Virus record (IMG/VR): IMGVR_UViG_3300030104_001426
Location: 1-29,460 of that record
Length of the DNA stretch: 29,460 nucleotides
DNA from: a virus
Direction: 5' to 3' (one strand)
Position 1 is the first letter of the stretch, and each line of letters opens with the position of its first letter. This document shows positions 1,198 to 26,749 of this stretch, one piece after another. Both the position numbers and the translations under genes were made by a program. The notes beneath the pieces are model-generated. The model was not told the DNA's origin, ran no database searches, and saw nothing but the letters and a program-made list of their open reading frames with translations.

Positions 1198-1419
1198 TTA
1201 TAGTGTTATTTCTGTTTGGTCAGCAGTTAATGTAAGTGAATCAGCCCTTTGTACTAATGTATCTACAGTAAATGCTTTAGTTTCTATTAAACTACCTGTT
1301 AATGGCAATAAAAAACATTCAGGTGAACTAAAACTCGGTATGCTTTCTGCTATGGTGTTATCTTCATCACCAAATTCTGTAAAGCAATATATTCTACCCC
1401 AGTTTATTGTGTTTGCCAT
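1198..1419 (-). CDS. Small hypothetical protein (73 aa)
   Basis: I do not recognise this family. It begins MANTINWGRIYC and ends in a Thr/Leu/Asp-rich tail, with a predominantly beta-prone composition and two Cys residues. The ATG lies exactly 6 nt downstream of a TATTGT box that has TAACAAA 13 nt further upstream, the late promoter-like element described in this annotation, so it probably heads a transcription unit with the fibre-type gene downstream. Its start overlaps the end of a 40-aa ORF. A small virion or fibre-associated protein is plausible but unproven. Confidence 0.6.
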   Translation of the reverse strand: MANTINWGRIYCFTEFGDEDNTIAESIPSFSSPECFLLPLTGSLIETKAFTVDTLVQRADSLTLTADQTEITL

Positions 1420-1516
1420 ATTTATACAATAAATTTTGTTGGTTTTTGTTATATACTTTTTTGTTTAAGTACTCTGTAAGTTTCTTAATGTTATTTTCTT
1501 TTGCTTTATACTTCAT
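1394..1516 (-). CDS. Small basic hypothetical protein (40 aa)
   Basis: ATG at 1516 overlaps the TGA of the connector gene as ATGA, which favours translational coupling. The 40-aa product is Lys/Asn-rich (MKYKAKENNIKKL...), probably helical, with no recognised family. The last 26 nt overlap the next gene and the late promoter-like element lies inside its 3' half, so this DNA has two roles. It is too short for coding statistics, so it is called mainly on the ATGA junction and on filling an otherwise empty gap of about 90 nt. Confidence 0.45.
   Translation of the reverse strand: MKYKAKENNIKKLTEYLNKKVYNKNQQNLLYKYGKHNKLG
1426..1451 (-). promoter_or_regulatory. Late promoter-like element P1419
   Basis: On the minus strand TAACAAA (1451-1445), a 13-nt spacer and TATTGT (1431-1426) lie 6 nt before the ATG at 1419. 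The arrangement is identical in spacing to six other sites in the window. If TATTGT acts as a -10 box, transcription would begin at or near the A of the ATG. Confidence 0.65.
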
Positions 1517-2016
1517 AATACCCAACCTTCAAAACTTGCATCTTTATCAGGGTGTACATCTTCATTTGTTGAAGTGTAGTATTCAGGAAATTTACTTGGT
1601 GCATTAAAACTTAAATAATCTATCAACCTGTTTGTATAATATTGTGCTGTATTTCTTTCTTTTTCTAAAAGATAATCTACTTCTTCTTTAGAAGCATTTT
1701 CTGCATTTTCACTATTGTGTTTAAATACACCTTTGTTTGCTATAGTATAAGCACTAAATGGTAACAGTTCTACCATACACCAATGTATAAGGCAAGGTTT
1801 TACATATTCGTTTACTAATGTTTGGTAATCACCAGTAAGTGTACCTGCTACAATTTTTGCTTGTATGCTTTCTAGTAAATCTGTACCTAAATAGTTTTCT
1901 ATATGTTTATCTTGTGCAATTTTTACATACTGTATAAACTTATCTGTATCTATATTACCTGATAGTGAAGTAAATTTTACTACATCTTTTCTTGTTATTA
2001 ATAGTGCTTCTGCCAT
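1513..2016 (-). CDS. Head-tail connector, DUF6712-like (167 aa)
   Basis: The mostly helical protein opens with LITRKDVVKFTSLSGN and has a long helix pair with VKIAQDKHIENYLGTDLLESI, then a hydrophobic CLIHWCMVELLPF segment. It ends in a short FEGWVL tail. This layout matches the head-tail connector-type proteins (DUF6712 as I recall it) that follow the portal gene in flavobacterial phages. It would sit on the portal ring at the neck. The start codon overlaps the portal stop region by one base, indicating coupled expression with the portal. Confidence 0.65.
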   Translation of the reverse strand: MAEALLITRKDVVKFTSLSGNIDTDKFIQYVKIAQDKHIENYLGTDLLESIQAKIVAGTLTGDYQTLVNEYVKPCLIHWCMVELLPFSAYTIANKGVFKHNSENAENASKEEVDYLLEKERNTAQYYTNRLIDYLSFNAPSKFPEYYTSTNEDVHPDKDASFEGWVL

Positions 2017-4043
2017 TATCCTTTATAGTTTGGGTGGTGTCCTTTGTCACCTCTTGTTATATTTGCTTGTGCTACTTCTTTGGGGTTTTTGGGTAGTTTA
2101 AAACCTTGTTTTACAGCTTGATTTACATTTACAAACTTTGTGTTAGCAAGTGCATTACCTTTATAGGGTGTGCCATCTTTTTTTAATTTCTTTTTGTAAA
2201 TTCTTCTTTCCCAAATGTGATGACAATTAACCCCACCTTGCCACTTGAACAAAGAATAGTTTTGCCCATTGTGTCCATGCTGCTTATTTACACCCCTAAA
2301 ACTCATTTGTGCAATATCTTCTTTTCTATATAGTTTACCTGTACTTAACATTCTTCTACAAAATGGTCTAGTTTCACCTTTTGCTTGTCTTTTTGTGCCT
2401 TTCACATACTTGTACCTAACCTTAAATAAATCATTATCTTGGCTAGAATCTTGTTTTGCTGATAACTTTAAACCATTTAAATAATTTTCTACATTAAAAT
2501 CTTCAGGTTCATCTTCTGTAGTATCTGTATCTAACAGTTCATAGTTTTCTAAATCTTCTATTTCACCTAATTGGTCTATTAGTGTAAATAATTCATCACC
2601 ATCATCATCACTTAAAAAAGGTCTTTCATCTTTTGCAAGTTCTTCTTCTGAATACATGCTTTTCTTCTTTACACATTTACCATTTTTATCTTTAACAAAT
2701 CCTTTTGGACATTTTTTTAGATCATCTTTTATATGTTTTTCACAAGGCATATACCAAGTCCTTGTGTTACCATCCACATCTATATATTCATGTGTGTGTA
2801 TTCCTTCACACCCTATATTTGTAGCCATTTCTTCAGCTTTTTCAGGTGTGCTATATGCTAACCTATCATCTATAATAGCAAAATCTTTATCTACTACCTG
2901 ACTAACTAACTTCACACCAGTTTCTTCTTCTTTAGCTTCTTGTGTTACTGCGTTATCTGTATCAATAAATTCTAAAGGTTGCAAGGTTCTAAAGTAAAGT
3001 TTTAAACTTATTTCATTAACTGCTAAAATATGGTTTATACATTCTATAATTTGATCTTGGTAAGGTTTTATGGTTATGTTGTTAAACAACAAACTAGCAG
3101 TTTTAATTTCATCTGCATTATTACCTAAACCACTATTACCATCCCTTACACCTAAAAGTAATGGGCTTGTTACTCTATGCCCCATAATTATTTTTCTAAT
3201 ACACTCATTAGCTAAATATTCATAGTGTGCAGGTGCATCATCTAGTGGTATATCATCTACAGTAGTTTTACTTTCTGCATTGTTGTTAAATGCTACAATT
3301 ACCTTTTCACCCCTGCTACCTGTAAGTTTATTCATTACCTCACTTTTAATTTGTAACTGTTTTTCTCTATCAGGTACACCATTGTTAAAGTTTACTACTT
3401 TAGTACCACTAAAATTACATTGTACATCATTTATAAGGAAGTCAGAAATTTCACTTTCTAATTCACAGTAAGCCAAAGCACCCTGATAATCTACTGGACA
3501 TATATAGTCATAACCTGATACATATTTTTTTACTACTTTTATTTCAGGTTCTTTACCATTACCATAACCAAAGTTTGCAATTCTTTTTAGTTTAGTATTT
3601 TGTTTTACCTTTTCCCAATCAGGTGCATAATAGTATGCTTCTATATCACCTTCTTCATTCATCTTTTCAGGTCTTAAAGTTTGTCTTGGGAAGTGTTCTG
3701 CTTTTATTACTTTACCATTTTGGTATAAAACTTGGAAACATGCTTCACCAAGTAGTTTAAGATCAAGTGCAATTTTCTTTAAACACTCATTACTAAAAAT
3801 ACTTCTTAGTGCTGCATATTCATCAGTTTTTGTACTACTATCAAGTGCATCTAAGCCCTTGCCGTAAATCATATTACTAATACCATTTATTATTGCATTG
3901 TTAGTTGTAGAACTTGTAAAAAGGTCTATAAGATATTGGTAGTAATTGTTGTCATCACCATAAGCTACCCATTCTTTTCTTTTATCTTCTACTACTTTGG
4001 GTTTGTTGTAGGTTGATAAATTTACTATGTGTATGTTATCCAT
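2016..4043 (-). CDS. Portal protein with C-terminal Cys/His-rich extension (675 aa)
   Basis: Residues 1 to about 395 have portal character: an N-terminal GDDNNYYQYLIDLFTSS start, INGISNMIYGKG, then CFQVLYQNGKVIKAEHFP and a helical stem region with MGHRVTSPLLLG and the long helix around 320-345. The portal dodecamer forms the DNA channel at one capsid vertex. The following 280 residues are an extension: a Cys/His cluster (C412, H416, H418, C434, H437, C445, C457), an acidic linker (about 478-530), and a basic domain with PFCRRM and GGVNCHHIWERRIY (C562, C607, H608, H609). Similar extensions occur in other Bacteroidetes phage head proteins; a metal-binding role is inference. It follows the 113-aa gene by 2 nt. 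Confidence 0.8.
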   Translation of the reverse strand: MDNIHIVNLSTYNKPKVVEDKRKEWVAYGDDNNYYQYLIDLFTSSTTNNAIINGISNMIYGKGLDALDSSTKTDEYAALRSIFSNECLKKIALDLKLLGEACFQVLYQNGKVIKAEHFPRQTLRPEKMNEEGDIEAYYYAPDWEKVKQNTKLKRIANFGYGNGKEPEIKVVKKYVSGYDYICPVDYQGALAYCELESEISDFLINDVQCNFSGTKVVNFNNGVPDREKQLQIKSEVMNKLTGSRGEKVIVAFNNNAESKTTVDDIPLDDAPAHYEYLANECIRKIIMGHRVTSPLLLGVRDGNSGLGNNADEIKTASLLFNNITIKPYQDQIIECINHILAVNEISLKLYFRTLQPLEFIDTDNAVTQEAKEEETGVKLVSQVVDKDFAIIDDRLAYSTPEKAEEMATNIGCEGIHTHEYIDVDGNTRTWYMPCEKHIKDDLKKCPKGFVKDKNGKCVKKKSMYSEEELAKDERPFLSDDDGDELFTLIDQLGEIEDLENYELLDTDTTEDEPEDFNVENYLNGLKLSAKQDSSQDNDLFKVRYKYVKGTKRQAKGETRPFCRRMLSTGKLYRKEDIAQMSFRGVNKQHGHNGQNYSLFKWQGGVNCHHIWERRIYKKKLKKDGTPYKGNALANTKFVNVNQAVKQGFKLPKNPKEVAQANITRGDKGHHPNYKG

Positions 4044-4045
4044 GT

Positions 4046-4387
4046 TTATATAAATACAAATTCGTTAGTTGTTGTGTTGGTAGTGTACTGATTTTCGTTT
4101 ACTGTGAAATCTGCTACTGTTTGATTAGTGCAAAATATTTTATCTCTAAAAATTAGTGTACTACCTTCTGTAATTTCTAAAGTATAAAAAGTATCTTCTA
4201 CCAAAGTAAAAGTATTGCTGTACTGGTAATAGTAATCTACTTCTGTAAAACTTGTAGATGTTTGGCTAAACACTTCCTTGTTTGTGCTTTCGTTGTTTAT
4301 CTTAATTGTATAAGTGTTTCCTGAAGTGTATGTTCTTGGAATAAAACTAAATGTTTGGCTACTACCTGAACTTTGTAAAACTATCAT
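4046..4387 (-). CDS. Conserved virion-associated beta protein (113 aa)
   Basis: The short protein looks all-beta, rich in Ser, Thr and Tyr, with a C-terminal DKIFCTNQT motif followed by ENQY and NEFVFI. I associate this type with the portal-side of head genes in flavobacterial phages but know no established function. It is the first gene after an intrinsic terminator and its ATG sits 6 nt behind a TATTGT late promoter-like box, so it starts the portal transcription unit. It could be a head-closure or decoration protein; that is a guess from context. Confidence 0.6.
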   Translation of the reverse strand: MIVLQSSGSSQTFSFIPRTYTSGNTYTIKINNESTNKEVFSQTSTSFTEVDYYYQYSNTFTLVEDTFYTLEITEGSTLIFRDKIFCTNQTVADFTVNENQYTTNTTTNEFVFI

Positions 4388-4393
4388 ATATAT

Positions 4394-4419
4394 ACAATAA
4401 AAGTACTTCTATTTTGTTA
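4394..4419 (-). promoter_or_regulatory. Late promoter-like element P4387
   Basis: TAACAAA (4419-4413), 13-nt spacer, TATTGT (4399-4394), then 6 nt to the ATG at 4387. It lies immediately downstream of a terminator hairpin, as expected for a promoter that restarts transcription for the 113-aa/portal unit. Confidence 0.7.
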
Positions 4420-4422
4420 AAT

Positions 4423-4448
4423 AAAAAAAAGGGCAGCTATTGCCACCC
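4423..4448 (-). terminator. Intrinsic terminator after tail tube gene
   Basis: The minus-strand RNA forms a 7-bp stem GGGUGGC/GCUGCCC (4448-4442 with 4437-4431) around loop AAUA, followed by eight U residues (4430-4423). Two of the pairs are G-U in the minus-strand RNA and would be A-C mismatches in the other orientation, which fits transcription from the minus strand. It separates the scaffold-capsid-tube unit from the portal unit. Confidence 0.85.
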
Positions 4449-4473
4449 TTCCATAAAACAAAAAAATCAAATT

Positions 4474-5022
4474 CTAACTGTTTGTGCCTTCTGTTACTGT
4501 TACTGTACCTGTTTGTCCTGCAAATGGATCTGCTGAAGTTGCACCTTCTAAAAAGTTAGCAGGTTTTAGTTCTTGTGCAGATAGTGTAAGTGTATAACCA
4601 CTTAAATCACCCATTGCTGCACCAGTAACTATTGTACCACCTGAAACATCTGCACCATGTTCTAACCCCATCATAAAGGCATTACCATTATAATCTTCAA
4701 TAACCACATGAGGTCTACCATAAGATAATAATTTTAATTCTTTATGGTCTTGTACTGTTAGTTTTTTAAGTGTAAGATTTAGTGTTTGCTCGAAAAAAGT
4801 TGTACCATTTTCTCTAGAACTTGTTATAGTTTGTTCAAAACTACTGTTACCCTTTACTTCATAGTTAAAGCAAGTAACATCTCCTAAACTATCTATTACA
4901 TCTGTATCTGTGCTATCAAAAGTTGTTGTTATTGAACCAAAATCAAAAAAGTACACACCTTTAATACCACCAACTACATCCTTACATGGTTCTTTTCTAC
5001 CCCTTGTTAAATTACATGCCAT
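4474..5022 (-). CDS. Major tail tube protein (182 aa)
   Basis: It opens with MACNLTRGRKEPCKDVVGGI and has a mixed beta core with YEVKGNSSFEQTIT, TFFEQTLNLTLKKL, KELKLLSYGRPHVVIED and GYTLTLSAQELKPANF. This matches the tail tube proteins I know from flavobacterial siphophages, which stack as hexameric rings to build the tail. About 180 aa is usual for a tube protein. It is the last gene of the scaffold-capsid unit, before a strong terminator. A small A/G-rich AGGAAT stretch precedes the ATG, one of the few Shine-Dalgarno-like sites here. Confidence 0.7.
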   Translation of the reverse strand: MACNLTRGRKEPCKDVVGGIKGVYFFDFGSITTTFDSTDTDVIDSLGDVTCFNYEVKGNSSFEQTITSSRENGTTFFEQTLNLTLKKLTVQDHKELKLLSYGRPHVVIEDYNGNAFMMGLEHGADVSGGTIVTGAAMGDLSGYTLTLSAQELKPANFLEGATSADPFAGQTGTVTVTEGTNS

Positions 5023-5061
5023 AATTCCTAAAATTTTTTTTATTATAAGTTATTGATAATC

Positions 5062-5089
5062 AGGCAGTTAAGTATAAACCTAACTACCC
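5062..5089 (-). other. Intergenic stem-loop between capsid and tail tube genes
   Basis: The minus-strand RNA can fold a 9-bp stem (5089-5081 with 5070-5062) with two G-U pairs and a 10-nt loop. No U-tract follows, so it is not a standard terminator. It lies in the roughly 90-nt gap between the major capsid gene and the tube gene and could stabilise the capsid mRNA or mark a processing site. The fold is seen; the role is inference. Confidence 0.45.
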
Positions 5090-5113
5090 TTTTATCATTC
5101 GTTAATTAGTATT

Positions 5114-6034
5114 CTATGTGTACTGAACGCAATCAGAACCTACACCAAATTGAACACCTGCTTGAAATCTCATTATGAATCTAACATTTTGTGAACCATC
5201 TATATCACTCATGTCAATTACTTTAACTTCATTCAAGTCATTTAGTAAAGAAGTACCAAAGAAAAAGTTACTTTTTTGTCCTGCAACCATTTCGTTAGTT
5301 CCTAAACCTTGTGCATGTGAAATTTTAATACCATCAAAGTATGCAGGTGTAATAGCTTGGTTGTTACCTTTATCTTCATAACCTGCAGCTCCTAATCCTG
5401 AACTTCCAAATCCACCTAAACTACGTATGTAGCTTCGGTAAACATTTGTTGCTACCCATATAGTAGCATCTTCTTGTCCATATACAGCACTTGGAATCGC
5501 ATCTGCAACTTTACCTAATTCTGTAATAACATTACCACTATTTACATCTGTAGCAACTACATCTACTACATCACTATCAGCAGCAAGAAGTGCTTTAAAT
5601 CCATCAAATTGTCCTGCTGTACCATTTACTCCTGCCCATATATTAGTTTCCATTCTTTGAGCTACTTTAGCTGAAAAATGTCCTATAATAAAATCTGCAA
5701 AAGATTTTGGTATTTCTCTACCTAAACCACCTAAACCAACTTCTGCTGCTTGCCATGTGTTTAAGAAATCTTTTTTACATACAGTAACATTTACCATAAA
5801 ATCTTCAAGTGTTAATGTTCTTTCAGATAATGTTAAAGTTGAACTATCTGAATAATCACATGCACCATTTTTTACAATGTCGTTACTGCTTACTTTTTGC
5901 ATAATTTGCTTATGCACTATGTTAGGTAAAATTGTTATTGTTTCTTCACCTAAAGTTTTACCACTTAACAGGGCTGCTTGGATATATTTCCCTGCAAATT
6001 CACCTGCATAAGTAGTTGAAATACTTGTTGCCAT
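5114..6034 (-). CDS. Major capsid protein (306 aa)
   Basis: The protein has the size and layout of an HK97-fold major capsid protein. An N-terminal arm (MATSISTTYAGEFAGKYI) leads to an E-loop-like region, a spine-helix region around residues 110-140 (IPKSFADFIIGHFSAKVAQRM) and a P-domain with GQEDATIWVATNVYRSYI. The C-terminal part, KSNFFFGTSLLNDLNEVKVIDM followed by MRFQAGVQFGVGSD, is typical of capsid proteins of this phage group. It follows the Glu-rich scaffold-like gene by 11 nt with no separate promoter, so it probably shares the scaffold's transcript. Confidence 0.85.
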   Translation of the reverse strand: MATSISTTYAGEFAGKYIQAALLSGKTLGEETITILPNIVHKQIMQKVSSNDIVKNGACDYSDSSTLTLSERTLTLEDFMVNVTVCKKDFLNTWQAAEVGLGGLGREIPKSFADFIIGHFSAKVAQRMETNIWAGVNGTAGQFDGFKALLAADSDVVDVVATDVNSGNVITELGKVADAIPSAVYGQEDATIWVATNVYRSYIRSLGGFGSSGLGAAGYEDKGNNQAITPAYFDGIKISHAQGLGTNEMVAGQKSNFFFGTSLLNDLNEVKVIDMSDIDGSQNVRFIMRFQAGVQFGVGSDCVQYT

Positions 6035-6045
6035 TTTCTAAATTA

Positions 6046-6681
6046 TTATATATTATTAATTCTTCTCATAACTCTATCAAAAGTTGTTTCACCTCTTCTG
6101 CTCATAAATACAGGTTCAGTTTTTACTTCTTCTTCAGGGTTATGTTTTACCTTTTCAACTGCTGAAAGTTCTTCTTTTTCTTCAATGGGTTTATCTTCAG
6201 CACTCATTTCTTCTTCTTTGTTGCCCATTTTTTCAATCATTCCTTTGATCTCTTTTATTTCATCTTGAAGTGAAGCTAGTTCTTCCTTAGTTGCATACTG
6301 CATTTCTTCTTTCTTCTCTTCTTCAAGATTTTCTTGTACTTCTTGTACAACTTCTTTATTTGCCATATTATCAGTATTTAAATTTTCTTCACTAGCTTCT
6401 TCTTTAGGTTCTTCTTCTTTTTCTTCTTCTGCACCAATAGAAGCTATAATGCCTTCTTCTTTTACTATTAATTTTTCACCATCTTCTAAAGTATATTCAC
6501 CAACTGGTAAAGGTACTTTTTCATCTTCTGTAACTATAAAAACTTCACTACCTGCTTCAAAGTTTTCACTTTCTATTACAGTACCATTTTCAAGTGTAGC
6601 TTGTTCTAGTTTTACTTCTTTTGTTTCAGTATCAATACTTAACAATTCTTTGATTTTTCCTAACATATTATCTGCCTTCAT
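6046..6681 (-). CDS. Putative capsid scaffolding protein (211 aa)
   Basis: This extremely acidic protein has an N-terminal beta module (residues about 20-80: LENGTVIESENF, VFIVTEDEKVPLPVGEYTLEDGEKL), then long Glu/Lys-rich coiled-coil stretches (about 85-190) and a basic C-terminal tail ending FDRVMRRINNI. A coiled-coil acidic body with a basic amphipathic end next to the capsid gene is the classic scaffold design, the tail contacting capsid subunits. It is read from its own TATTGT-type promoter-like element. The assignment rests on composition and position; no catalytic motif is visible. Confidence 0.7.
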   Translation of the reverse strand: MKADNMLGKIKELLSIDTETKEVKLEQATLENGTVIESENFEAGSEVFIVTEDEKVPLPVGEYTLEDGEKLIVKEEGIIASIGAEEEKEEEPKEEASEENLNTDNMANKEVVQEVQENLEEEKKEEMQYATKEELASLQDEIKEIKGMIEKMGNKEEEMSAEDKPIEEKEELSAVEKVKHNPEEEVKTEPVFMSRRGETTFDRVMRRINNI

Positions 6682-6687
6682 AGTAGT

Positions 6688-6713
6688 ACAATAATTATTG
6701 GTTTAGTTTGTTG
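6688..6713 (-). promoter_or_regulatory. Late promoter-like element P6681
   Basis: CAACAAA (6713-6707; one mismatch to TAACAAA), 13-nt spacer, TATTGT (6693-6688), 6 nt to the ATG at 6681. It would drive scaffold, major capsid and tail tube together. Confidence 0.65.
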
Positions 6714-6725
6714 TGTTTTTGTTAA

Positions 6726-7139
6726 TTACCTTTTAGCCATTTCTCTTACATCAGCTATAAATTTAACTGCATCTTTAACAAGTTCAATATGTTCACTTTG
6801 TGCTGCTTTTAAATCTCTATACATTTTTACTTCTTTTGGGTTTATCCCAAGATTTTTTGCTACCCTTTCTATATCATTAATTGCAGTTTCATAATAAGCT
6901 ACATTATACATCCCTGAACCATCTCTTAAAGTGCTTGTTTCATTTACAAATTGCTTAGCATCTGCCATAACATTAGCAATTTTACCCATAAGCTGTATAG
7001 CTTGTTTTTTTAATTCTTTTGCTCTTTGGTTACCTTTTGCTATATCTTTAAGTACATCTCTTTCAAAACTTAAGTTCACTTTTTTTGTTTCACCTACTTT
7101 TTTTAGGTATGCTTGTATTCTCTTTTCTATAGTATTCAT
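6726..7139 (-). CDS. Tandem paralog C with shared N-terminal tag (137 aa)
   Basis: Third and last of three adjacent paralogs. It begins MNTIEKRIQAYLKK, nearly identical in the other two, then diverges into a highly helical Lys-rich protein. A second weaker similarity follows near the C-terminus: RVAKNLGINPKEV. No enzyme motif is visible. The short leader (CAAGTAGAATAAG before the ATG) resembles that of paralog B, indicating duplication of the whole gene with its leader. The location between protease and scaffold suggests a head-internal protein. Confidence 0.7.
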   Translation of the reverse strand: MNTIEKRIQAYLKKVGETKKVNLSFERDVLKDIAKGNQRAKELKKQAIQLMGKIANVMADAKQFVNETSTLRDGSGMYNVAYYETAINDIERVAKNLGINPKEVKMYRDLKAAQSEHIELVKDAVKFIADVREMAKR

Positions 7140-7160
7140 CTTATTCTACTTGTTGTATTT

Positions 7161-7511
7161 TTATTTTAAAACTTGTGACAAAGATTTTCTTTGTTGCTCA
7201 TAAGCATTTATCATTTTTCTAACTCTTTGTACTTCTGGAATATCAACTCCTAAGTTTTTTGCTGATTTTTCAACATCATCTGAAATTCTTTGTGCAACTC
7301 TATAAACAGCATCAATTCTATCCATTTCTCTTTTACCTTTTCCTATGGCTTCTCTTGCATCAGTAGCAAACTGCATTAAGTCATCAATACCTCTTTCAAG
7401 TTCCTTTTCATATTTCTTTAAGTCATCTACAAAAGATAACTTTACCTTCTCTACTTTTTGTTTTGGTATTTTACTTAAATATGCTTGTATCCTTTTTTCT
7501 ATTGTGTTCAT
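7161..7511 (-). CDS. Tandem paralog B with shared N-terminal tag (116 aa)
   Basis: Middle member of the triplet. It begins MNTIEKRIQAYLSK and is otherwise helical and charged, with KSAKNLGVDIPEV at about residues 85-97 aligning with RVAKNLGINPKEV of paralog C. The ATG is 1 nt after the stop of paralog A, so it is probably translated from the same message. No known family is recognised. The tag is far better conserved than the body, which suggests it is the functional common part. Confidence 0.7.
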   Translation of the reverse strand: MNTIEKRIQAYLSKIPKQKVEKVKLSFVDDLKKYEKELERGIDDLMQFATDAREAIGKGKREMDRIDAVYRVAQRISDDVEKSAKNLGVDIPEVQRVRKMINAYEQQRKSLSQVLK

Positions 7512-7512
7512 C

Positions 7513-7869
7513 TTACCCTACTTGTTTTATTTCATTTTCTAGTTTATTCTCTAAACTTTTTAGTTTGTTTAACTCTGATTTTAAAACTTTTACTTTTGGT
7601 GGCTCTGCTATACCTAGTTCTTTAACTTCATTCTCTAATTCTTCCAATAATTCATCTGCATCTAAATAAGCATCTCTAAAATCAAATTGTAAAATATCTC
7701 TTGCTTTAGTCATAGATTTTTGTGCTTTTTCTATTTCATCTCTAATAAAATCTTCTAAACCAAAACCATCATTTATTCTTTCCTGTATGTCATTTATTTT
7801 AGATAATTTAATTTGTTCTTTGGGTAATTTACTTAGGTATGCCTGTATTCTTTTTTCTATAGTATCCAT
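7513..7869 (-). CDS. Tandem paralog A with shared N-terminal tag (118 aa)
   Basis: First of the triplet in transcription order. It begins MDTIEKRIQAYLSK, then a helical, strongly charged body with ELGIAEPPKVKVL in the place of the NLGINPKEV-like segment of the other two. The ATG lies exactly 6 nt behind a TATTGT late promoter-like box, so the triplet appears to form its own late transcription unit. The function is unknown. Options are internal head proteins targeted by the tag, scaffold helpers or neck components. Confidence 0.7.
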   Translation of the reverse strand: MDTIEKRIQAYLSKLPKEQIKLSKINDIQERINDGFGLEDFIRDEIEKAQKSMTKARDILQFDFRDAYLDADELLEELENEVKELGIAEPPKVKVLKSELNKLKSLENKLENEIKQVG

Positions 7870-7875
7870 GTTATT

Positions 7876-7901
7876 ACAATATGTTTTTTTATTATTTGTT
7901 A
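7876..7901 (-). promoter_or_regulatory. Late promoter-like element P7869
   Basis: TAACAAA (7901-7895), 13-nt spacer, TATTGT (7881-7876), 6 nt to the ATG at 7869. It starts the three-paralog unit. Confidence 0.7.
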
Positions 7902-7906
7902 TGTTT

Positions 7907-8056: not shown

Positions 8057-8059
8057 TTT

Positions 8060-8986: not shown

Positions 8987-8992
8987 ACTATA

Positions 8993-9018
8993 ACAATAAT
9001 TATTTTTGTTTTTTGTTA
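8993..9018 (-). promoter_or_regulatory. Late promoter-like element P8986
   Basis: TAACAAA (9018-9012), 13-nt spacer, TATTGT (8998-8993), 6 nt to the ATG at 8986. The TAA of the upstream box is the stop codon of the tape measure gene. Confidence 0.7.
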
Positions 9019-13096: not shown

Positions 13097-14085
13097 TACC
13101 TAACATTGTTTATAAGATTAAATGCAAATTCAAAATCTACTGTGTAATTTATTAGCTTATCGTTTAAACTTGTTCTATGTACAAATGATTTACTTCTAGG
13201 TATTATAGGTAGTGTTTTACCTTCAAACCTTATATATACATTTTCACTTAAAAATAATTCTTCTATAGTTTTGGTTGCATCTTCTTTTATAAACCCTGTA
13301 TTCATTTGTAAATTACTAATAGCATTTACATTATATCTTTGTTGCTGTCCTTTGTAAGTTGGATAAGTAACAGTTGATACATTTATACTATTTGTTTTGT
13401 GTGTTTCATCTGATACTGTAAAAGTTTCTGTGGTTTTTTTAAAAAAATATAAATCTTCATAAGCACCAAATTTATTTACAAATGTTACTTTATAAGAAGT
13501 ATATTTAGGTTCACATACATTATTTACTGTAATTGTTTTTCTTAACGTTGTATCATCTGTATCAAATACTTGTATTGTGCTTGTGTTAGCAGGTATGGTT
13601 ATGTATTGTATTTTTTGGTTGCTATTACCACTATCTGTTATTTGTGTTGTGCTACTATCTATTACAACCTTACCTACACCTTCTGCAAATATTGGTAACT
13701 TACCTGCTGTGTTTTCAGGTAAATATATATTGTCTGCTGATATTAAAGCATTGGTGGATAGTTGGGGGTTTATTTCATCTTCAAAAGTACCAAAGCCATC
13801 TAACGCTAAAAAGTTAGTAGTTACTGGTGAACCACTTGTAAATTCTAAACTTGTAGTAGAATCAAATAACCTTTTAACTACAGTTACCCATTTAGTTACA
13901 CTTGCATAGTCGTTATTAAAATCATGGGTTATATAATCCCTTACTAAATTACCTATTTCAAAAATTATATTAGTTTGGCTTGTAATCCTATCTTTGTCTA
14001 AAGTATATTTTAGATCACTAGAAGTATAGCTACCTGCTGTACCACTATATATATAAATTTCTAATCTTGCACTTTTTAAAGCCAT
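13096..14085 (-). CDS. Tail structural protein (329 aa)
   Basis: The protein is nearly all beta, starting MALKSARLEIYIYSG, with a conserved-looking IIFEIGNLVRDYITHDFN segment near residue 40. The C-terminal part has PTYKGQQQRYNV, IRFEGKTLPIIPRSKSFVHRT and a beta-strand tail. It sits between the Ig-like repeat protein and the 737-aa tail protein with 1-nt spacing and overlap. By position it may be the distal tail protein or another tip subunit. I do not recognise a named family with confidence. Confidence 0.55.
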   Translation of the reverse strand: MALKSARLEIYIYSGTAGSYTSSDLKYTLDKDRITSQTNIIFEIGNLVRDYITHDFNNDYASVTKWVTVVKRLFDSTTSLEFTSGSPVTTNFLALDGFGTFEDEINPQLSTNALISADNIYLPENTAGKLPIFAEGVGKVVIDSSTTQITDSGNSNQKIQYITIPANTSTIQVFDTDDTTLRKTITVNNVCEPKYTSYKVTFVNKFGAYEDLYFFKKTTETFTVSDETHKTNSINVSTVTYPTYKGQQQRYNVNAISNLQMNTGFIKEDATKTIEELFLSENVYIRFEGKTLPIIPRSKSFVHRTSLNDKLINYTVDFEFAFNLINNVR

Positions 14086-14086
14086 G

Positions 14087-15706
14087 TTATATTATATTAT
14101 CGTTTCCTGCATCACTACCACAATTTACTGCCCTATCTAGTTCGGTAATTACACCATCTTGATTTATTTTAATTACCACAAAAGAAGCATTTATATTACC
14201 TGCACCACTACCTGTAGCGTTTACTGTTACTGCAAAGTATTTATTGCCACCTCTAACCCTGTCAAAACCTGAAGAAGCACTACCCCTACATACAATATTA
14301 CCTGCTGCTATATCATCTAGTGTTGAACCTGAACTATTTATAGTAACTGAATCATTAACCGAATATGGTTTTGTTCTATCACAAAATCCATTTTTAGCTG
14401 TAAAAGAATCTTCACTTATAAAAAAGTTAGGGTTAGTAGCACTACATGGGTTAGTAGTTGGGGGTTGTGTAAATCCTGTTACATCACAAGTTTTTTCTTG
14501 TGTAGCATTACTAAAACCACTTGGTACTACAAAAGTTACTTTTATTGTTCTTGCTGTAGGTGAAGTTACTTCAGGAAACACATCTAAAAACCCACTTGCC
14601 CCATCCGAAATATTTGTACTTGAACGCCTATATGTAGCAGTTACCCCATTTACATCTACTGTACCTGCTAGTATATCACCTGTAGTTGTAATACTAAAAT
14701 TATGATAACTTATAAAGTCATCTGTACAAACAAGTTCAGGTGTAGCTGTTGCCTTTTGCTCAAATGTATCATCACAATCTAAAAAAGCTCCTGCATTACT
14801 ATAACCTGTTGGTACTTCAAACCTAAATGTTAATACTATTTCCCTATTTGAACCTGTGGTATTATTTAAAGCTGAAACTGGGTTACCTGCTTTTACATCA
14901 CTTGTAATATCTGTAGTATTTGAAACCCCTGCTATAGTTTTTATGTTTACCCTTGTTAAATCACCTGTGTGTGTGTAATTAGGTATTGATACAACCCCAG
15001 TAGAACTCACAGCTCCTCCACTTAAAGCTACTGCATCTGTAGTAGCATCTTGTGTAGTACAATGTAAAGATTTTGTACATGCTGAAGCTACTGTGAAATC
15101 ATGACTATCTGTTATACAAGCATCTACACTATTTCTTGCCCTTACTTTAAATGTACCACTTACACAAGTAGAAGTAGTAGAAAAAGTAAGTGTTTGGTTT
15201 GGTACTGTACCTGTAAGAACTGCATCTATTGCTACACCTTGATAATTTAAAACCTCATAACTTGTTATCGTAGCACTTGTGCCATTTGAAAAGAAGCTAC
15301 CAAGTGATACTGTACTACCTGTAGATACGTTTGTAAGGGGTGATATTGTACCTGCAAAAACTGCCATGTTATTATTACCTGATACACAAGTTGTTGGTAC
15401 TAATTGTGTAAATGTTTGTGGGCAACTTATTGTACCATCTGTTGTATTTGTAAAGTTATCAGGTATTCGTATTGTGTAATTTACAGTTCTTGGGGTGTTA
15501 GTGCCATCTGATGCTAATGCAGAAAACTCAATTTGGTCTTGTGCTATAATTGTACCTTTAAGTATGTTGGGGTTTATAATAGTACCATTACTTTCTACAC
15601 TAAAGTTTGATAACCCTGCTGTAGAACAACTAAATGCACCTTCTGCTACTGTAGGTTCTGTAGCTGTTATGTAAAATGGGCTTCTTGAATTTATTTTTGT
15701 ACTCAT
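14087..15706 (-). CDS. Ig-like repeat tail/surface protein (539 aa)
   Basis: The protein carries at least three related modules, each ending in a strand-Pro-Cys pattern: IRIPDNFTNTTDG..C..TFTQ (about residues 103-128), FEVPTGYSNAGAFLDCDDTFEQ (about 300-321) and FVVPSGFSNATQEKTCDVTGF (about 394-414). It is Thr/Ser/Asn-rich with many Cys residues, consistent with extracellular beta-sandwich domains stabilised by disulfides. The C-terminal module differs (DRVRGGNKYFAVTV). Its place in the tail block suggests a tail-surface or adhesion role. The repeats are seen; the adhesion role is inference. Confidence 0.6.
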   Translation of the reverse strand: MSTKINSRSPFYITATEPTVAEGAFSCSTAGLSNFSVESNGTIINPNILKGTIIAQDQIEFSALASDGTNTPRTVNYTIRIPDNFTNTTDGTISCPQTFTQLVPTTCVSGNNNMAVFAGTISPLTNVSTGSTVSLGSFFSNGTSATITSYEVLNYQGVAIDAVLTGTVPNQTLTFSTTSTCVSGTFKVRARNSVDACITDSHDFTVASACTKSLHCTTQDATTDAVALSGGAVSSTGVVSIPNYTHTGDLTRVNIKTIAGVSNTTDITSDVKAGNPVSALNNTTGSNREIVLTFRFEVPTGYSNAGAFLDCDDTFEQKATATPELVCTDDFISYHNFSITTTGDILAGTVDVNGVTATYRRSSTNISDGASGFLDVFPEVTSPTARTIKVTFVVPSGFSNATQEKTCDVTGFTQPPTTNPCSATNPNFFISEDSFTAKNGFCDRTKPYSVNDSVTINSSGSTLDDIAAGNIVCRGSASSGFDRVRGGNKYFAVTVNATGSGAGNINASFVVIKINQDGVITELDRAVNCGSDAGNDNII

Positions 15707-16212
15707 TTTTCTAAACTAAATTTTAAAAAATCTTCTACTTCTAGTGCGTAAGCATTTACTACATCATCAGGTAACTGCTTAAATGCTTTTTCAAAAGGTT
15801 TTGTAAAAAACAAACTTGGCTTTATACCCTTTTGGTATATACTTCTTGCAATTATAAAATTTAAACCTTTTCTAGTTATAAATCTACCTTTTTCATCTCT
15901 AGGTGCTATTGTTCTTTTTACAGTCCACTTATCTAATTTACTTGCAGGTGGTCTTTTGGTAGTATAAGAAAATGGTGTGTTGTATTTTTTCTTTGTACCA
16001 CTTACACCTTTATCTTGGTATACTCCATATTCTTCCATAGAAAAAGATAAACTAAAACTATTTTTAAAAATTTCTAAATTAGAATCCAAACTTTTAGATA
16101 GTTTACCAAAAGCATTTTTCTTTTGTAGTTTTAATTGTTTTCTACTACCATCAATAACTTGTTTTCTAAATCTGTTTAATACAGTTTCTAGTTTACCACC
16201 TTTTGTTAGCAT
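15703..16212 (-). CDS. Tail completion / HK97 gp10-like protein (169 aa)
   Basis: The basic protein contains SMEEYGVYQDKGVSG at about residues 58-72. This Y-G-x-Y-x-D-x-G-V-x-G pattern is typical of HK97 gp10-like minor tail or head-tail joining proteins. The N-terminal helix is Lys/Arg-rich (LETVLNRFRKQVIDGSRKQL), the C-terminus acidic. It overlaps both the preceding tail-terminator-like gene and the next gene by a few bases. The usual neighbour of gp10-like proteins is a tail terminator, as here. Confidence 0.65.
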   Translation of the reverse strand: MLTKGGKLETVLNRFRKQVIDGSRKQLKLQKKNAFGKLSKSLDSNLEIFKNSFSLSFSMEEYGVYQDKGVSGTKKKYNTPFSYTTKRPPASKLDKWTVKRTIAPRDEKGRFITRKGLNFIIARSIYQKGIKPSLFFTKPFEKAFKQLPDDVVNAYALEVEDFLKFSLEK

Positions 16213-16661
16213 ATTGTCATATCGTTTTGTACAATTAAATCAAATGTAGCTGCCCATCCTGCAAGTTTATTTTCAAATCTGTCTACAAATGGTTCACATC
16301 CTACTTGCCCTTCTACTTGGTAACCTTCTGTATATAGATCACCCCTTTGTAATAACGCCATTAATCTATTTAGTATGGATAGTTGGGTATTTAATACATC
16401 TTGTTCATTGTCATTACCTACAAATATATCTGTTGTTTCTTTTTTACTTTCATCTACAATATCCATTGCAAGTACACTTATGTTAAATGTTAAAGTGTTT
16501 GTAGCTACGTTACAGTTGTTTACTATTATGTGAGATAATGGAAATATACTCTGTTTGTTTAAATCTATATCATCTAAACTACCATAGCTTACTGTATTAC
16601 AAAATGGTTCTGCTATCAGCTTTGTTTTTATTTTTTCTAGTACATCGTAAAACTTTGTCAT
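16206..16661 (-). CDS. Tail terminator-like protein (151 aa)
   Basis: The mixed alpha/beta protein begins MTKFYDVLEKIKTKL and has NTLTFNISVLAMDIVDESK, a VLNTQLSILNRLMALLQRGD helix and an AGWAATFDLIV strand. This order of helix, strands, helix, strand resembles tail-terminator or tail-completion proteins. The ATG forms an ATGA overlap with the stop of the frameshifted chaperone product, not with the unshifted product, linking it to that frame. The name rests on layout and position. Confidence 0.55.
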   Translation of the reverse strand: MTKFYDVLEKIKTKLIAEPFCNTVSYGSLDDIDLNKQSIFPLSHIIVNNCNVATNTLTFNISVLAMDIVDESKKETTDIFVGNDNEQDVLNTQLSILNRLMALLQRGDLYTEGYQVEGQVGCEPFVDRFENKLAGWAATFDLIVQNDMTIC

Positions 16662-17403
16662 CTTTGTCTGCTTTTAATTCTCTGCATTTCTATTTGTGTT
16701 TTTTCTTTTTCAAAAGCCAAAAACATTAAGCATTGGTGTACATTTAATTTAGTGATAACCTCATACTTGGAAACATCTCCTTTAGAAAGTCCATAGATGC
16801 TTGAATACCATCCCCACTTTCTTGTAAAATTCTGTGTGCTTCCATACTCGTTTCCTTCGTTTCCTTCTTCAAATAGTTCAGGGTAGTTTGTAGCAACTCG
16901 CTTTTTAAATTCCAAAAAAAAACCATAGCACCCATTACTACTTCTAGTGGCATTAGTTTCATTTCACCACTATTATCTAAACCATCATATTCTTTTATTT
17001 TGTACCTATCACCTTTTTTGTGTATTACTGGTCTATATAGAACTGCCATTGCCTTGTGCATGGTTTCCCAGTCACTCATGTTTTCATCTAAATCTATATA
17101 TTCCCCTAGTGTCATTTCATCAAGCTGTGTAATAAAACCATATTCTATACTCCCTAATTTAAATCTAGGTATTAGATCATTCTTTACTTCAAATACTTGG
17201 TTTAGGTGTTCTAGTATTTCTTTTACACTTGTTAATTTTATCTTTGCAATATCTTTTAAATCCATATTACAAAATATCTCTACTGTTTTGTGCATTAAGA
17301 AACTGGTATCTTTGTTTTCTTCAGTATTAACCTTTACAAACTTTTGATATTGTTCTAGTGTTATTTCCGATAAACTGCTAGGTACGTTTATTTCTACTTT
17401 CAT
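16658..17403 (-). CDS. Tail assembly chaperone, -1 frameshift fusion (about 248 aa)
   Basis: After about 163 codons of the short form, a -1 slip on the T run gives a fusion ending at 16658. The added frame (16915-16658) has no ATG near its beginning, and encodes a clear gpT-like extension: RKWGWYSSIYGLSKGDVSKY followed by an EVITKLNVHQCLMFLAFEKEK helix. The W-G-W-Y..I..L..G-D pattern is typical of these C-terminal extensions. Its stop overlaps the next gene as ATGA. In lambda the two chaperone forms, at an uneven ratio, guide tape measure and tube assembly; the same is inferred here. Confidence 0.8.
16744..17403 (-). CDS. Tail assembly chaperone, short (unshifted) form (219 aa)
   Basis: This helical protein follows the tail-chaperone plan (lambda gpG position). 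It begins MKVEINVPSSLSEITLEQYQKF and contains a long DEMTLGEYIDLDENMSDWETMHKAMAVLYRP segment, typical of such proteins, then a C-terminal helical end. Translation in frame 0 passes a run of nine T residues and ends at 16744. The ATG is 6 nt downstream of TATTGT and an intrinsic terminator lies just upstream, so this gene begins the tail transcription unit. Confidence 0.75.
   Translation of the reverse strand: MKVEINVPSSLSEITLEQYQKFVKVNTEENKDTSFLMHKTVEIFCNMDLKDIAKIKLTSVKEILEHLNQVFEVKNDLIPRFKLGSIEYGFITQLDEMTLGEYIDLDENMSDWETMHKAMAVLYRPVIHKKGDRYKIKEYDGLDNSGEMKLMPLEVVMGAMVFFWNLKSELLQTTLNYLKKETKETSMEAHRILQESGDGIQASMDFLKEMFPSMRLSLN
16914..16922 (-). promoter_or_regulatory. Programmed -1 frameshift site (T9 slippery run)
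   Basis: On the minus strand the codons read ATG GTT TTT TTT TGG, giving a T TTT TTT heptamer that permits a -1 slip of both tRNAs. The -1 frame opens here and is intact to 16658. No strong pseudoknot was identified by eye. Confidence 0.8.
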
Positions 17404-17409
17404 ACTAAT

Positions 17410-17435
17410 ACAATAAAATTTTAAGTAAAATGTAT
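17410..17435 (-). promoter_or_regulatory. Late promoter-like element P17403 (weaker upstream box)
   Basis: TATTGT (17415-17410) is 6 nt before the ATG at 17403. The upstream box position holds ATACATT (17435-17429) instead of TAACAAA, the poorest match of the seven. It lies just downstream of an intrinsic terminator. Confidence 0.55.
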
Positions 17436-17440
17436 AACAT

Positions 17441-17465
17441 AAAAAAAGCAGGTATTTCTACCTGC
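17441..17465 (-). terminator. Intrinsic terminator before tail unit
   Basis: The perfect 7-bp stem GCAGGTA/TACCTGC (17465-17459 with 17454-17448) closes a 4-nt loop and is followed on the minus strand by seven T residues (17447-17441). It ends the unit of small genes at 18037-17503. Confidence 0.88.
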
Positions 17466-17502
17466 CTTCATATTAACCAAATTAAAATCAAATGAAATTA
17501 CT

Positions 17503-17721
17503 TTAAGTTACATAATTTTTATAAATATATTCATATAGTTCTTCAATTTTTTTTATTATTTCTTTACTGTTTTGTTTATATAGTTCTTTGCCTGTTACTA
17601 CGTTACCTTGTAAATTCATTTCTAGTTTTACCATTTTGTTGTTTCCTTGTTCTACTGGTTTGTAATATACAAAGCAATTAGCACCCCAACACGCACTTAT
17701 AACTTCATGTGTGCCATCCAT
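17503..17721 (-). CDS. Small hypothetical protein (72 aa)
   Basis: The product begins MDGTHEVISACWGANCFVYYKP and ends in a helical segment rich in Lys, Glu and Tyr (KEIIKKIEELYEYIYKN). I do not recognise the family. It overlaps the preceding small membrane gene by 25 nt and ends 38 nt before a strong terminator. It is the last gene of a short unit between terminase and tail genes, a place where phages often keep accessory or moron-like genes. Confidence 0.6.
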   Translation of the reverse strand: MDGTHEVISACWGANCFVYYKPVEQGNNKMVKLEMNLQGNVVTGKELYKQNSKEIIKKIEELYEYIYKNYVT

Positions 17722-17834
17722 ACAATTAAGTACATTGTACCATAAAAGAAACTAAAAAAACTTACAAAAGATATAAAGCCATAAGCTATTACCTTATATA
17801 ATGTTTTCCTATTTTCTTTATCGTTTACTACCAT
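17697..17834 (-). CDS. Small single-helix membrane protein (45 aa)
   Basis: ATG at 17834 is 5 nt after the stop of the coiled-coil gene and the frame overlaps the next gene by 25 nt. A charged N-terminus (about residues 1-14) is followed by a long hydrophobic Phe-rich segment (about 16-40: VIAYGFISFVSFFSFF onward), consistent with one membrane helix. The function is unknown. It could be an inner-membrane accessory or superinfection factor, but nothing in the sequence shows this. Confidence 0.5.
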   Translation of the reverse strand: MVVNDKENRKTLYKVIAYGFISFVSFFSFFYGTMYLIVWMAHMKL

Positions 17835-17839
17835 TTTAA

Positions 17840-18037
17840 TTAATCTATATTCTTCCATGTTTCAAAGTTTTTGTTAATAATCTGTGTTTCTAAATCTTTT
17901 AATTGTTTATCCATAGCATCTATAGTTTCTTCTTGTGCTATTATCTTTTGTTCTCTATCATGTATAGATTCTCTTAACTTATCTATTTTCTGATTTAATC
18001 TAATAATTGTTTCACTAAAGTTTTTATCTAAATTCAT
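17840..18037 (-). CDS. Small coiled-coil protein (65 aa)
   Basis: The whole chain is predicted to be helical with heptad-like spacing of hydrophobics (LNQKIDKLRESIHDREQKI, then DAMDKQLKDLETQI). The family is not recognised. The ATG is preceded by the A-rich leader AAAAAAACAATT, shared with the genes at 18221 and 22928 but not with the TATTGT-controlled late genes. A terminator lies directly upstream, so it probably has its own promoter close by, which I could not define. Confidence 0.65.
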   Translation of the reverse strand: MNLDKNFSETIIRLNQKIDKLRESIHDREQKIIAQEETIDAMDKQLKDLETQIINKNFETWKNID

Positions 18038-18058
18038 AATTGTTTTTTTAAAGTTAAT

Positions 18059-18080
18059 AAAAAAGGGGTATTGCTACCCC
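18059..18080 (-). terminator. Intrinsic terminator after terminase unit
   Basis: The 6-bp stem GGGGTA/TACCCC (18080-18075 with 18070-18065) has a 4-nt loop and is followed on the minus strand by six T residues (18064-18059). It lies 7 nt after the stop of the 44-aa Cys-containing gene. Confidence 0.85.
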
Positions 18081-18086
18081 CTTAAG

Positions 18087-18221
18087 TTAATAATATACTA
18101 CCCCATTACACCCTAAATCACAATCACCTTTATCATCAAGGTAGTTCATACAGTTAGGGCATTTGTTAGAAAGAAATTCTTCCTTCTCTATCAGGTATTG
18201 TGTTGTATTTGTATCTATCAT
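18087..18221 (-). CDS. Small zinc-ribbon-like protein (44 aa)
   Basis: ATG at 18221 has the AACAATT leader shared with neighbouring early-type genes. The 44-aa product has two Cys pairs, KCPNC (C21, C24) and DCDLGC (C34, C38), a spacing compatible with binding one zinc ion. It lies between TerL and a strong terminator, so its reading frame ends where transcription is expected to end. The function is unknown. Confidence 0.7.
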   Translation of the reverse strand: MIDTNTTQYLIEKEEFLSNKCPNCMNYLDDKGDCDLGCNGVVYY

Positions 18222-18282
18222 AATTGTTATTTTAAATGTTACTGCTAATATACAAAAGTTTTAATTATAAACAAATTATTAA

Positions 18283-19449
18283 CTAATATATAAAGTATTC
18301 CCCTTTTGGTGTACTTAAATGGTCTGTTAAAATATACCTACAAGCATCTATACAATCAGGGTGAACCCCAGTAGGTTTTTCTATGGTGTTACCTTCTTTA
18401 TCTCTTGCCCACACATAACCCTGTAGTTCTCTTTTTAAGTTCTTACTATTACTTGTTACATATATTTCATTTTGGTTTATCATGTTTATACCATAGGTAA
18501 CACTATCCCTACCTTTAGTGCAGGGGTATATCTTGTGTCCATCCATAGAAAGGGTAGCTATACTTTTAGGTTCTGCATGGTCTGCTATTATGTTTTCTTT
18601 TATATTGTTTTGTGTTAGAAATAAACTCACATCTCTTAATACCATATTACTCTTATATAATACTTCATCAAATATATAAGCATTGTTCCATTTGTATAAT
18701 GCAATTATTGTAGTAGGATCAACATAACCAAAGTCCATACCATAACCTAATAATTTAGCTTCTAAGGGCAGTTTGTCTATTTCTAGCCAGTCAGGTATAC
18801 AAGCACCTTGTAAAGCACCTGTAAGGCCATCTAAATAAACTCTTGTCCAGTTTTCCCAGTAGGTACTTGTCTTTGCTTTATCTCTTGCCTTTTCTAATTC
18901 TTTTATTATACCTTCAGGTAGTGTGTTGTTATCTTTGTATGTTAATCTTACAAAATCTGTATCTAGTTGCCCTTTTAATTCTTTATCTACCCAAAACAAA
19001 CTGGTAGGGTTATAATCTAACCATATGTTACCTGAAGTTCTTATGGCTAATTGTTGGTAGCTTTCAAACCCATTTGGTATAGTGTTACATTCGTTTATAA
19101 ATAAATCTGTTCTTCTACTACCTCTTATCTTATCAGGTTGATCTATACTAAAAAATTCTAAATAACTACCATTACTAAAAGTGTATTTAAGTGTTGTTTT
19201 GTTAAAACTTTCTTCCTTGTATCTATTTGTAGTTTTCATAATCTTTAGAAAATCTTTTAATACACCCCTTCTTAATGCAGGTACAGTAGAAGCTACTACT
19301 GATACTTCCCTACCTTTATTTTTTATTGCATCTTGTATTAGTATAAGTAATATGCAAATTGTTTTACCTGCTGAAGTACCCCCACATACAATCCTTACCC
19401 TGTTCTTTAACCCCAGTAATTTATATAATGCTTCTGTTTTTTTAAACAT
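18283..19449 (-). CDS. terL: Terminase large subunit
   Basis: The ATPase-nuclease motor packages phage DNA into proheads. Walker A is CGGTSAGKT (residues 22-30) and the Walker B-type motif is DLFINE (115-120), where Asn precedes the catalytic Glu as in PBSX-type terminases. The nuclease half shows GMDFGYVDPT (D239), IIADHAEPKS (D290) and HPDCIDACRY (D365/D368). At 388 aa it is slightly compact for the Terminase_3-type family but has both halves. The ATG follows the TerS stop directly with no gap, indicating coupled translation. Confidence 0.93.
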   Translation of the reverse strand: MFKKTEALYKLLGLKNRVRIVCGGTSAGKTICILLILIQDAIKNKGREVSVVASTVPALRRGVLKDFLKIMKTTNRYKEESFNKTTLKYTFSNGSYLEFFSIDQPDKIRGSRRTDLFINECNTIPNGFESYQQLAIRTSGNIWLDYNPTSLFWVDKELKGQLDTDFVRLTYKDNNTLPEGIIKELEKARDKAKTSTYWENWTRVYLDGLTGALQGACIPDWLEIDKLPLEAKLLGYGMDFGYVDPTTIIALYKWNNAYIFDEVLYKSNMVLRDVSLFLTQNNIKENIIADHAEPKSIATLSMDGHKIYPCTKGRDSVTYGINMINQNEIYVTSNSKNLKRELQGYVWARDKEGNTIEKPTGVHPDCIDACRYILTDHLSTPKGEYFIY

Positions 19450-19683
19450 CTAATCTTCTAACCACAAAGGCACATCTTCATTTATGGTTATATCTTTTGT
19501 TTCTTTTGGTTTACCTGCCCAGTAATTATAAAATAATTGTACAAATTTAAAATCACCTTTCTGTATTCCTTTAGTTAAAGCTGCAAATGCTTCAGGTTCT
19601 AGTGGTGATAGTTTTTCTATTAAATCTATTTCTTCTGCTTTAGATTTTCTTCCTGATCCTTGCCTTTTACCCCCATGTTTCAT
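19450..19683 (-). CDS. terS: Terminase small subunit (77 aa)
   Basis: A short basic start (GGKRQGSGRKSKAEE) is followed by helices containing LSPLEPEAFAALTKGIQKGD and FYNYWAGKPKETKDIT. The G-x-G-R-x-x-K-A-E-E start and the ..Y..GKP.... ending are typical of small DNA-recognition subunits in this phage group. TerS recognises the packaging site and recruits TerL. It is short even for a TerS. The start overlaps the stop of a 40-aa ORF as TAATG and the stop abuts terL. Confidence 0.8.
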   Translation of the reverse strand: MKHGGKRQGSGRKSKAEEIDLIEKLSPLEPEAFAALTKGIQKGDFKFVQLFYNYWAGKPKETKDITINEDVPLWLED

Positions 19684-19805
19684 TAGTTTCTTTTGCTTGT
19701 TATTCTATTAGAATTGTAATTACCTTTTCTTCTTTTGCTTTTTTGTTTTGTCTTGTAGTAAATTAAATCATCCTCATTTGCTCTAATAAATCTTATATTT
19801 TGCAT
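19683..19805 (-). CDS. Small basic protein leading terminase unit (40 aa)
   Basis: ATG at 19805 opens a 40-aa frame that ends in a TAATG overlap with terS. The product has an N-terminal QNIRFIRANEDDLIYYK segment and a very basic C-terminus (KSKRRKGNYNSNRITSKRN). It sits 21 nt downstream of the predicted transcription start of the terminase unit. It may act as a leader for coupled terS translation or as a small DNA-binding protein; neither is shown. Confidence 0.6.
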   Translation of the reverse strand: MQNIRFIRANEDDLIYYKTKQKSKRRKGNYNSNRITSKRN

Positions 19806-19816
19806 CTTGAAAAAAG

Positions 19817-19828
19817 TTGATTAATCAA
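19817..19828. promoter_or_regulatory. Perfect 12-bp palindrome at terminase promoter
   Basis: TTGATTAATCAA is its own reverse complement and covers the predicted start point of the terminase-unit promoter. A dyad there is the usual geometry of an operator for a dimeric repressor. None of the other six copies of the element has it. Confidence 0.5.
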
Positions 19829-19832
19829 ATAT

Positions 19833-19858
19833 ACAATAAAAAAAATAGTGTTTTGTTA
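19833..19858 (-). promoter_or_regulatory. Late promoter-like element P19805 (terminase unit)
   Basis: TAACAAA (19858-19852), 13-nt spacer and TATTGT (19838-19833) have the same spacing as at the other late genes, but the next ATG is 27 nt further on. A Bacteroidetes-type -7 box, TATATTTG (19833-19826), follows directly, without a good -33 TTG. The TAA of the upstream box is also the stop codon of the gene before. Confidence 0.7.
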
Positions 19859-26695: not shown

Positions 26696-26749
26696 ATATT
26701 CCCACTAACCCACCAAAGTTAGTCGTTTTTTTTTACAAAGTCAAGTTTG

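Follow-up and report, generated by a model that had tools for sequence, protein, structure and literature searches.

The window, a virus record of 29,460 bases, carries nearly all of its genes on the minus strand. They include genes for the terminase, portal, capsid, protease and a tape-measure-like protein, and an early/replication side encodes DnaA-C, exonuclease and SSB-like proteins. The virus is a small marine flavophage of roughly 30 kb. Its terminase is 47% identical to those of Flavobacterium phage FpV9 relatives and its portal and capsid match, among named phages, only those of Nonlabens phages P12024S/L, from which we infer a flavobacterial host. A search of bacterial genomes for relatives found none and gave no prophage or host evidence. 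Three tandem genes at 6726-7869 (minus strand) share a near-identical N-terminus (M-N/D-TIEKRIQAYL) and occur in the closest relatives only.

Paired boxes before the late genes

A first-pass annotation of the window had described seven copies of a paired element, TAACAAA-N13-TATTGT, upstream of late genes. All seven were recovered with the 13-nt spacer (Table 1). Five are exact and on the minus strand, one has a single mismatch (6681) and one has a different left box (17403). Shuffled sequence, the test that the annotation had proposed, yielded 0.032 exact pairs per window with a maximum of 1 (1000 first-order Markov shuffles of the same window), against the five observed, and an exact pair with ATG at +6 appeared in none of the 1000 shuffles. 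A search allowing up to three mismatches returned 60 matches against 64.8 expected, no more than chance. Because these looser matches as a whole are at chance level, the case rests on the exact matches and on comparison between phages. TATTGT itself occurs 14 times on the minus strand; the seven occurrences that do not precede promoter-bearing genes have at least four mismatches in the left box, in agreement with the earlier statement that seven further ACAATA matches lack a distal box. In six of the seven copies TATTGT lies at -12 to -7 from the A of the ATG; the exception is the copy before the terminase genes, with a leader of 27 nt.

The annotation had placed two copies directly behind terminators, and intrinsic terminators were indeed found there. 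A third terminator (18062-18083, minus strand) lies before a gene without a late box, that at 18037. We also confirmed that the boxes do not fit the known Bacteroidetes promoter: the TAnnTTTG -7 box is present in 0 of the 7 copies, and no TT[GA]-N17-22-TAnnTTTG was found before the promoter-bearing orthologues. Host-type promoters before the early genes have weak support, with one good site at 26744 (minus strand) that is not enriched in orthologues.

Two points of the annotation needed amendment. The left box at 17403 had been called poor and does differ from TAACAAA at four positions (ATACATT), but its family consensus TTTTATACATA is kept even where the protein of the relative is no more than 56-73% identical, which makes this promoter a variant rather than a copy in decay. 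The element at 19805 does stand ahead of the terminase, but 19805 itself starts a 39-codon ORF (MQNIRFIRANEDD..., 19684-19805, minus strand) between the terS promoter and the terminase small subunit gene terS (19450-19683); several relatives start terS at that ATG. Relatives carry the box pair 27-29 nt before terS. The leader of the terS promoter contains a palindrome which is a possible operator or packaging-site element.

Table 1. Promoters, associated elements and regulatory genes in the window
Feature	Position	Strand	Details
Late promoter PterS	19833..19858	-	Exact TAACAAA-N13-TATTGT; before the 39-codon ORF (19805) and terminase genes; 27-nt leader
Palindrome TTGATTAATCAA in terS promoter leader	19817..19828	.	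Relatives at same place: TTGAWTAATCAA, TTGAATAATCAA, TCATTAATGA, ATTATTAATAAT or TAATTAATTAATTA
Late promoter of 17403	17410..17435	-	TATTGT at -12; variant left box ATACATT, family consensus TTTTATACATA
Intrinsic terminator	17444..17469	-	Directly upstream of 17403 promoter; also conserved in relatives
Late promoter of 8986 (head maturation protease, PF14550)	8993..9018	-	Exact pair; TATTGT at -12
Late promoter of 7869	7876..7901	-	Exact pair; TATTGT at -12
Late promoter of 6681, ahead of major capsid gene	6688..6713	-	CAACAAA (1 mismatch); TATTGT at -12
Late promoter of 4387, ahead of portal gene	4394..4419	-	Exact pair; TATTGT at -12
Intrinsic terminator	4427..4452	-	Directly upstream of 4387 promoter; also conserved in relatives
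Late promoter of 1419	1426..1451	-	Exact pair; TATTGT at -12
ECF-like sigma factor (sigma2 + sigma4), proposed reader of the promoters	23844..24392	-	TIGR02937, AlphaFold model, Foldseek
Small hydrophobic protein, about 60-77 aa	24362..24586	-	Overlaps sigma gene start; conserved in relatives that have a close sigma, directly upstream of its gene

Conservation in relatives and the predicted start site

Among 240 loci (the window and relatives), the exact pair occurred 87 times with a 13-nt spacer and 0-2 times with each of the other spacers between 6 and 23 nt. The N13 peak also held in 306 related loci that were not fetched by the motif, where 39 distinct dereplicated sites had this spacing and 0-3 had each other spacing from 8 to 19, so the result is not circular. 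A scan of 2.9 million viral contigs for TAACAAA-N13-TATTGT-N6-ATG gave at least 79 new loci. Among the matches listed, 64 loci have proteins in common with the window, and two or more sites are present in 34 of these; the 15 that are unrelated to it carry a single site each and appear to be chance matches. Fpv5, the named phage with the nearest terminase, contained zero matches to the window's motif.

The upstream regions of the orthologues of each window gene were then compared. TATTGT was found at -12 before orthologues of 1419, 4387, 6681, 7869, 8986 and 17403; for 17403, TATTGT or TATTAT stood there in 25 of 52 distinct upstreams. Neither box was found at -12 before orthologues of the other compared genes, save for one upstream at 595-1185, and the boxes were absent before internal genes of the late operons. 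The distance from box to ATG is not constant across phages, being 6, 7, 8, 15, 19 or 27-29 nt, with 7, 8, 15 or 19 nt at certain orthologues of 6681 and of further late genes. Such variation fits a promoter rather than a signal for translation. With the boxes before the same late-gene orthologues, a fixed spacing and two copies behind conserved terminators, the earlier proposal of a phage-specific late promoter is supported.

Taken as a -10 element, the downstream box at -12 to -7 would set the start of transcription at the A of the ATG. Bacterial transcription starts favour a pyrimidine followed by a purine, and a pyrimidine stood at -1 in 59 of 59 dereplicated promoter-bearing family genes compared with 305 of 628 others (49%; p = 5e-18, a value made optimistic by the kinship of the sequences). 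The late mRNAs of the window phage are thus predicted to be leaderless, with the 5' end at the first codon. A at -3, which flavobacterial translation favours (PMC6847099), was not raised before promoter-bearing genes (31/59 vs 392/628). Only 5.5% of F. psychrophilum mRNAs are leaderless (PMC9723704) and 87% of F. johnsoniae leaders exceed 10 nt (PMC6847099). Leaderless phage late mRNAs, if true, would contrast with the mostly leadered mRNAs of the host.

An ECF-like phage sigma as proposed reader, and the lineage-specific boxes

The window encodes a candidate reader of these promoters (Table 1), whose start was placed at 24392 by upstream stop codons in relatives. All 46 proteins in the set formed by this sigma and 45 aligned homologues matched TIGR02937 (sigma70-ECF) over their full length, with a best E-value of 3.7e-10 and 3.6e-06 for the window protein (residues 11-166 on positions 8-165 of 165). 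We call the window protein "ECF-like" because its score lies under the curated NCBIfam cut-off (26.7 vs 42.9 bits) and a Pfam scan of it gave no match. Its AlphaFold model (pLDDT 76) is fair within domains, but with a pTM of 0.42 the arrangement of the domains is not reliable. The model has helices at 5-77 and 99-166 joined by a low-confidence link of about 20 residues; sigma2 and sigma4 alone, with a linker of fewer than 50 residues, are what distinguishes an ECF sigma. The top Foldseek matches were all ECF sigmas (sigmaE, SigL, SigH, AlgU), with probability near 1 and a global TM of about 0.33. A tblastn search with the window sigma against named phages found nothing, and a profile search of PDB sequences returned antibody noise only.

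Occurrence of the sigma was compared with that of the boxes. Nearly all of the 31 near-complete records with a sigma of at least 264 bits had three or more sites, mostly on one strand, the exceptions being G012 with two and G023 with one. G023 has a close sigma yet only one site within one mismatch, which counts against the pairing. Near-complete records with a more distant sigma (100-225 bits) had 0-2 sites, none beyond background. The sigma was present in every motif-rich family record longer than 25 kb that was checked; a further 50 records in which it was sought were mostly fragments. Positive autoregulation was not apparent, the box standing at -12 in 0 of 33 distinct sigma upstreams. The small hydrophobic protein encoded beside the sigma matched no anti-sigma family; it is a candidate sigma partner, or may be an unrelated membrane protein.

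Downstream boxes differ between sigma lineages, reading TATTGT, TATTAT, RGTTAT or, in P12024S, CGTTAA. In every case the box lies at -12 and an (A)ACA core is found upstream of it. In distant phages RGTTAT stands at -12 before the same late genes, with GAACA or AAACA in place of the left box. Positional k-mers, counted with no motif assumed, recovered TATTG at -12 (z 21) and GTTAT at -11 (z 16); one set paired TATTGT at -12 with TAACAAA at -32 and the other AGTTAT at -12 with AACAA at -31/-30. Box type clusters on the sigma tree, with 11 changes compared with 22.5 for shuffled labels, a test limited by long branches and shared phage ancestry. As both sigma and promoter changes follow phage ancestry, it is only suggestive that the downstream box shifts together with the sigma lineage, and no recombinant turned up whose box follows the sigma and not the structural genes. 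No clearly defined box was established for the X group (AATTWA/AGTTAT) or for L024, L030 and L032. The sigma of L030/L032 sits on a long branch within the window's clade and the late box is unrecognisable in L024 and L030/L032; sigma and promoter may have changed together in these phages.

P12024S and P12024L (Nonlabens/Persicivirga phages, Inhavirus) offer a cultured counterpart. They have head genes homologous to those of the window (30-37% identity), the ECF sigma gp33, annotated as a Sigma-70 region 2 protein, and, as found here, a leaderless-type motif before late genes. The P12024S gp33 scores above the Pfam Sigma70_r2 cut-off (25.2 vs 24) and is undetected by the profile of the window family. 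The window's motif is absent from the P12024S genome; its late genes are preceded by AAAACAAA-N13/14-CGTTAATA-N4-ATG, with CGTTAATA as the downstream box and not TATTGT. The motif also occurs in relatives whose gp33 homologues are as little as 48% identical. One P12024S late-type promoter lies just after gp33 and ahead of the terminase, like the terS promoter in the gene order of the window.

How the late boxes may be read

We consider it probable, and hold this with good confidence, that the seven boxes serve as late promoters for host core RNA polymerase carrying the ECF-like sigma of the phage, and that the resulting late mRNAs are leaderless. This sigma, a product of the early/replication side, would join the host core enzyme. 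Its region 4 would read TAACAAA as a -35-type box with an ECF-like AAC and its region 2 would read TATTGT as the -10 box, so that transcription from the A of the ATG yields leaderless virion mRNAs. The terS transcript would be the exception, with its 27-nt leader carrying the palindrome. Terminators just upstream of two promoters would insulate these from the preceding unit.

The boxes might instead be read by a host sigma, either sigma A helped by an activator from the phage or one of the host's ECF sigmas, the phage sigma-like gene serving another purpose. Flavobacteria have several ECF sigmas, seven in F. psychrophilum, where a promoter class with a CGT box (SM6) is described (PMC9723704), and the P12024S box CGTTAA resembles SM6. 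The window's box, though, fits neither TAnnTTTG nor SM5 TAnnTTGY (PMC9723704), and from one phage lineage to another it changes along with the sigma that the phage encodes. The box is missing from records with distant sigmas, and all the motif-rich family records above 25 kb that were checked have the sigma. We thus regard reading by a host sigma as unlikely.

A signal for translation initiation or mRNA stability would explain why TATTGT lies a fixed 6 nt from the ATG in most copies. It is scarcely credible given that the same boxes stand 27-29 nt before terS and 7, 8, 15 or 19 nt before other late orthologues, are missing before internal operon genes and in two cases follow terminators, and that the A at -3 favoured in flavobacterial translation (PMC6847099) is not raised. 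Recognition by a single-subunit phage RNA polymerase or by a DNA-binding regulator other than a sigma is also highly improbable. Phage RNA polymerases do use conserved promoters of similar length, but scans of window proteins revealed no single-subunit polymerase, and two boxes 13 nt apart, the downstream one at -12, together with a Y/R start have the anatomy of a sigma-type promoter in a genome with a sigma-like gene.

Compared with known systems, promoters read by the phage sigma would resemble those of ECF sigmas, the hallmarks of which are sigma2 plus sigma4, an AAC -35 box and an AAC/CGT promoter pair (PMC8103513). The window shares the two-domain protein with a short linker and an upstream-box AAC about 16-17 nt from the downstream box. 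AAC-type -35 boxes are present in the window lineage (TAACAAA), the RGTTAT lineage ((A)ACA) and the P12024S lineage (AAAACAAA), and the 17403 variant has ATACA. CGT is lacking from the -10 box of the window (TATTGT) and present in that of the P12024S group (CGTTAATA), giving the latter an AAC/CGTT promoter. The window further differs from ECF systems in that its sigma is phage-encoded, no self-promoter was found and an anti-sigma is only a candidate.

T4 gp55 and SPO1 gp28 + gp34 are functional analogies, being phage proteins that redirect host core RNA polymerase to late genes. T4 late promoters have only a -10 box, used with the sliding clamp. Unlike this -10 box alone (TATAAATA), TATTGT has a conserved upstream box at a fixed spacing; the window phages are also set apart from T4 and SPO1 by their size of about 30 kb and their kinship to phages of Bacteroidetes. 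The Bacteroidetes sigma A promoter (TTTG/TAnnTTTG) is likewise AT-rich, with a downstream box near -12 to -5, but the window boxes have no TTTG, a fixed 13-nt spacer and an AAC core.

Little seems to have been written on late transcription in Bacteroidetes phages, and our literature search found no account, for these phages, of late promoters read by an ECF-type sigma of the phage. If reading by the phage sigma is true, widespread marine flavophages use a minimal ECF-like sigma as a late switch, and their late regulons can be deduced from sequence at single-base resolution. The lineages would then provide natural sigma/promoter pairs in which the -35 core is conserved and the -10 box changes, helpful in studying box choice by sigma region 2. 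A broader reading, that matched ECF-sigma/late-promoter pairs, each specific to a lineage, have radiated among small flavophages and make leaderless late mRNAs and that the co-translated small membrane protein of the window's clade is a phage anti-sigma timing the late switch, is as a whole rather unlikely.

The cultured P12024S makes the sigma/late-promoter proposal testable. In this phage (L281), late-type promoters at 2980-3031, 5365-5412 and 25135-25201 lie in intergenic regions of about 46-65 bp shared with opposite small genes, two of which have host-type TAnnTTTG promoters.
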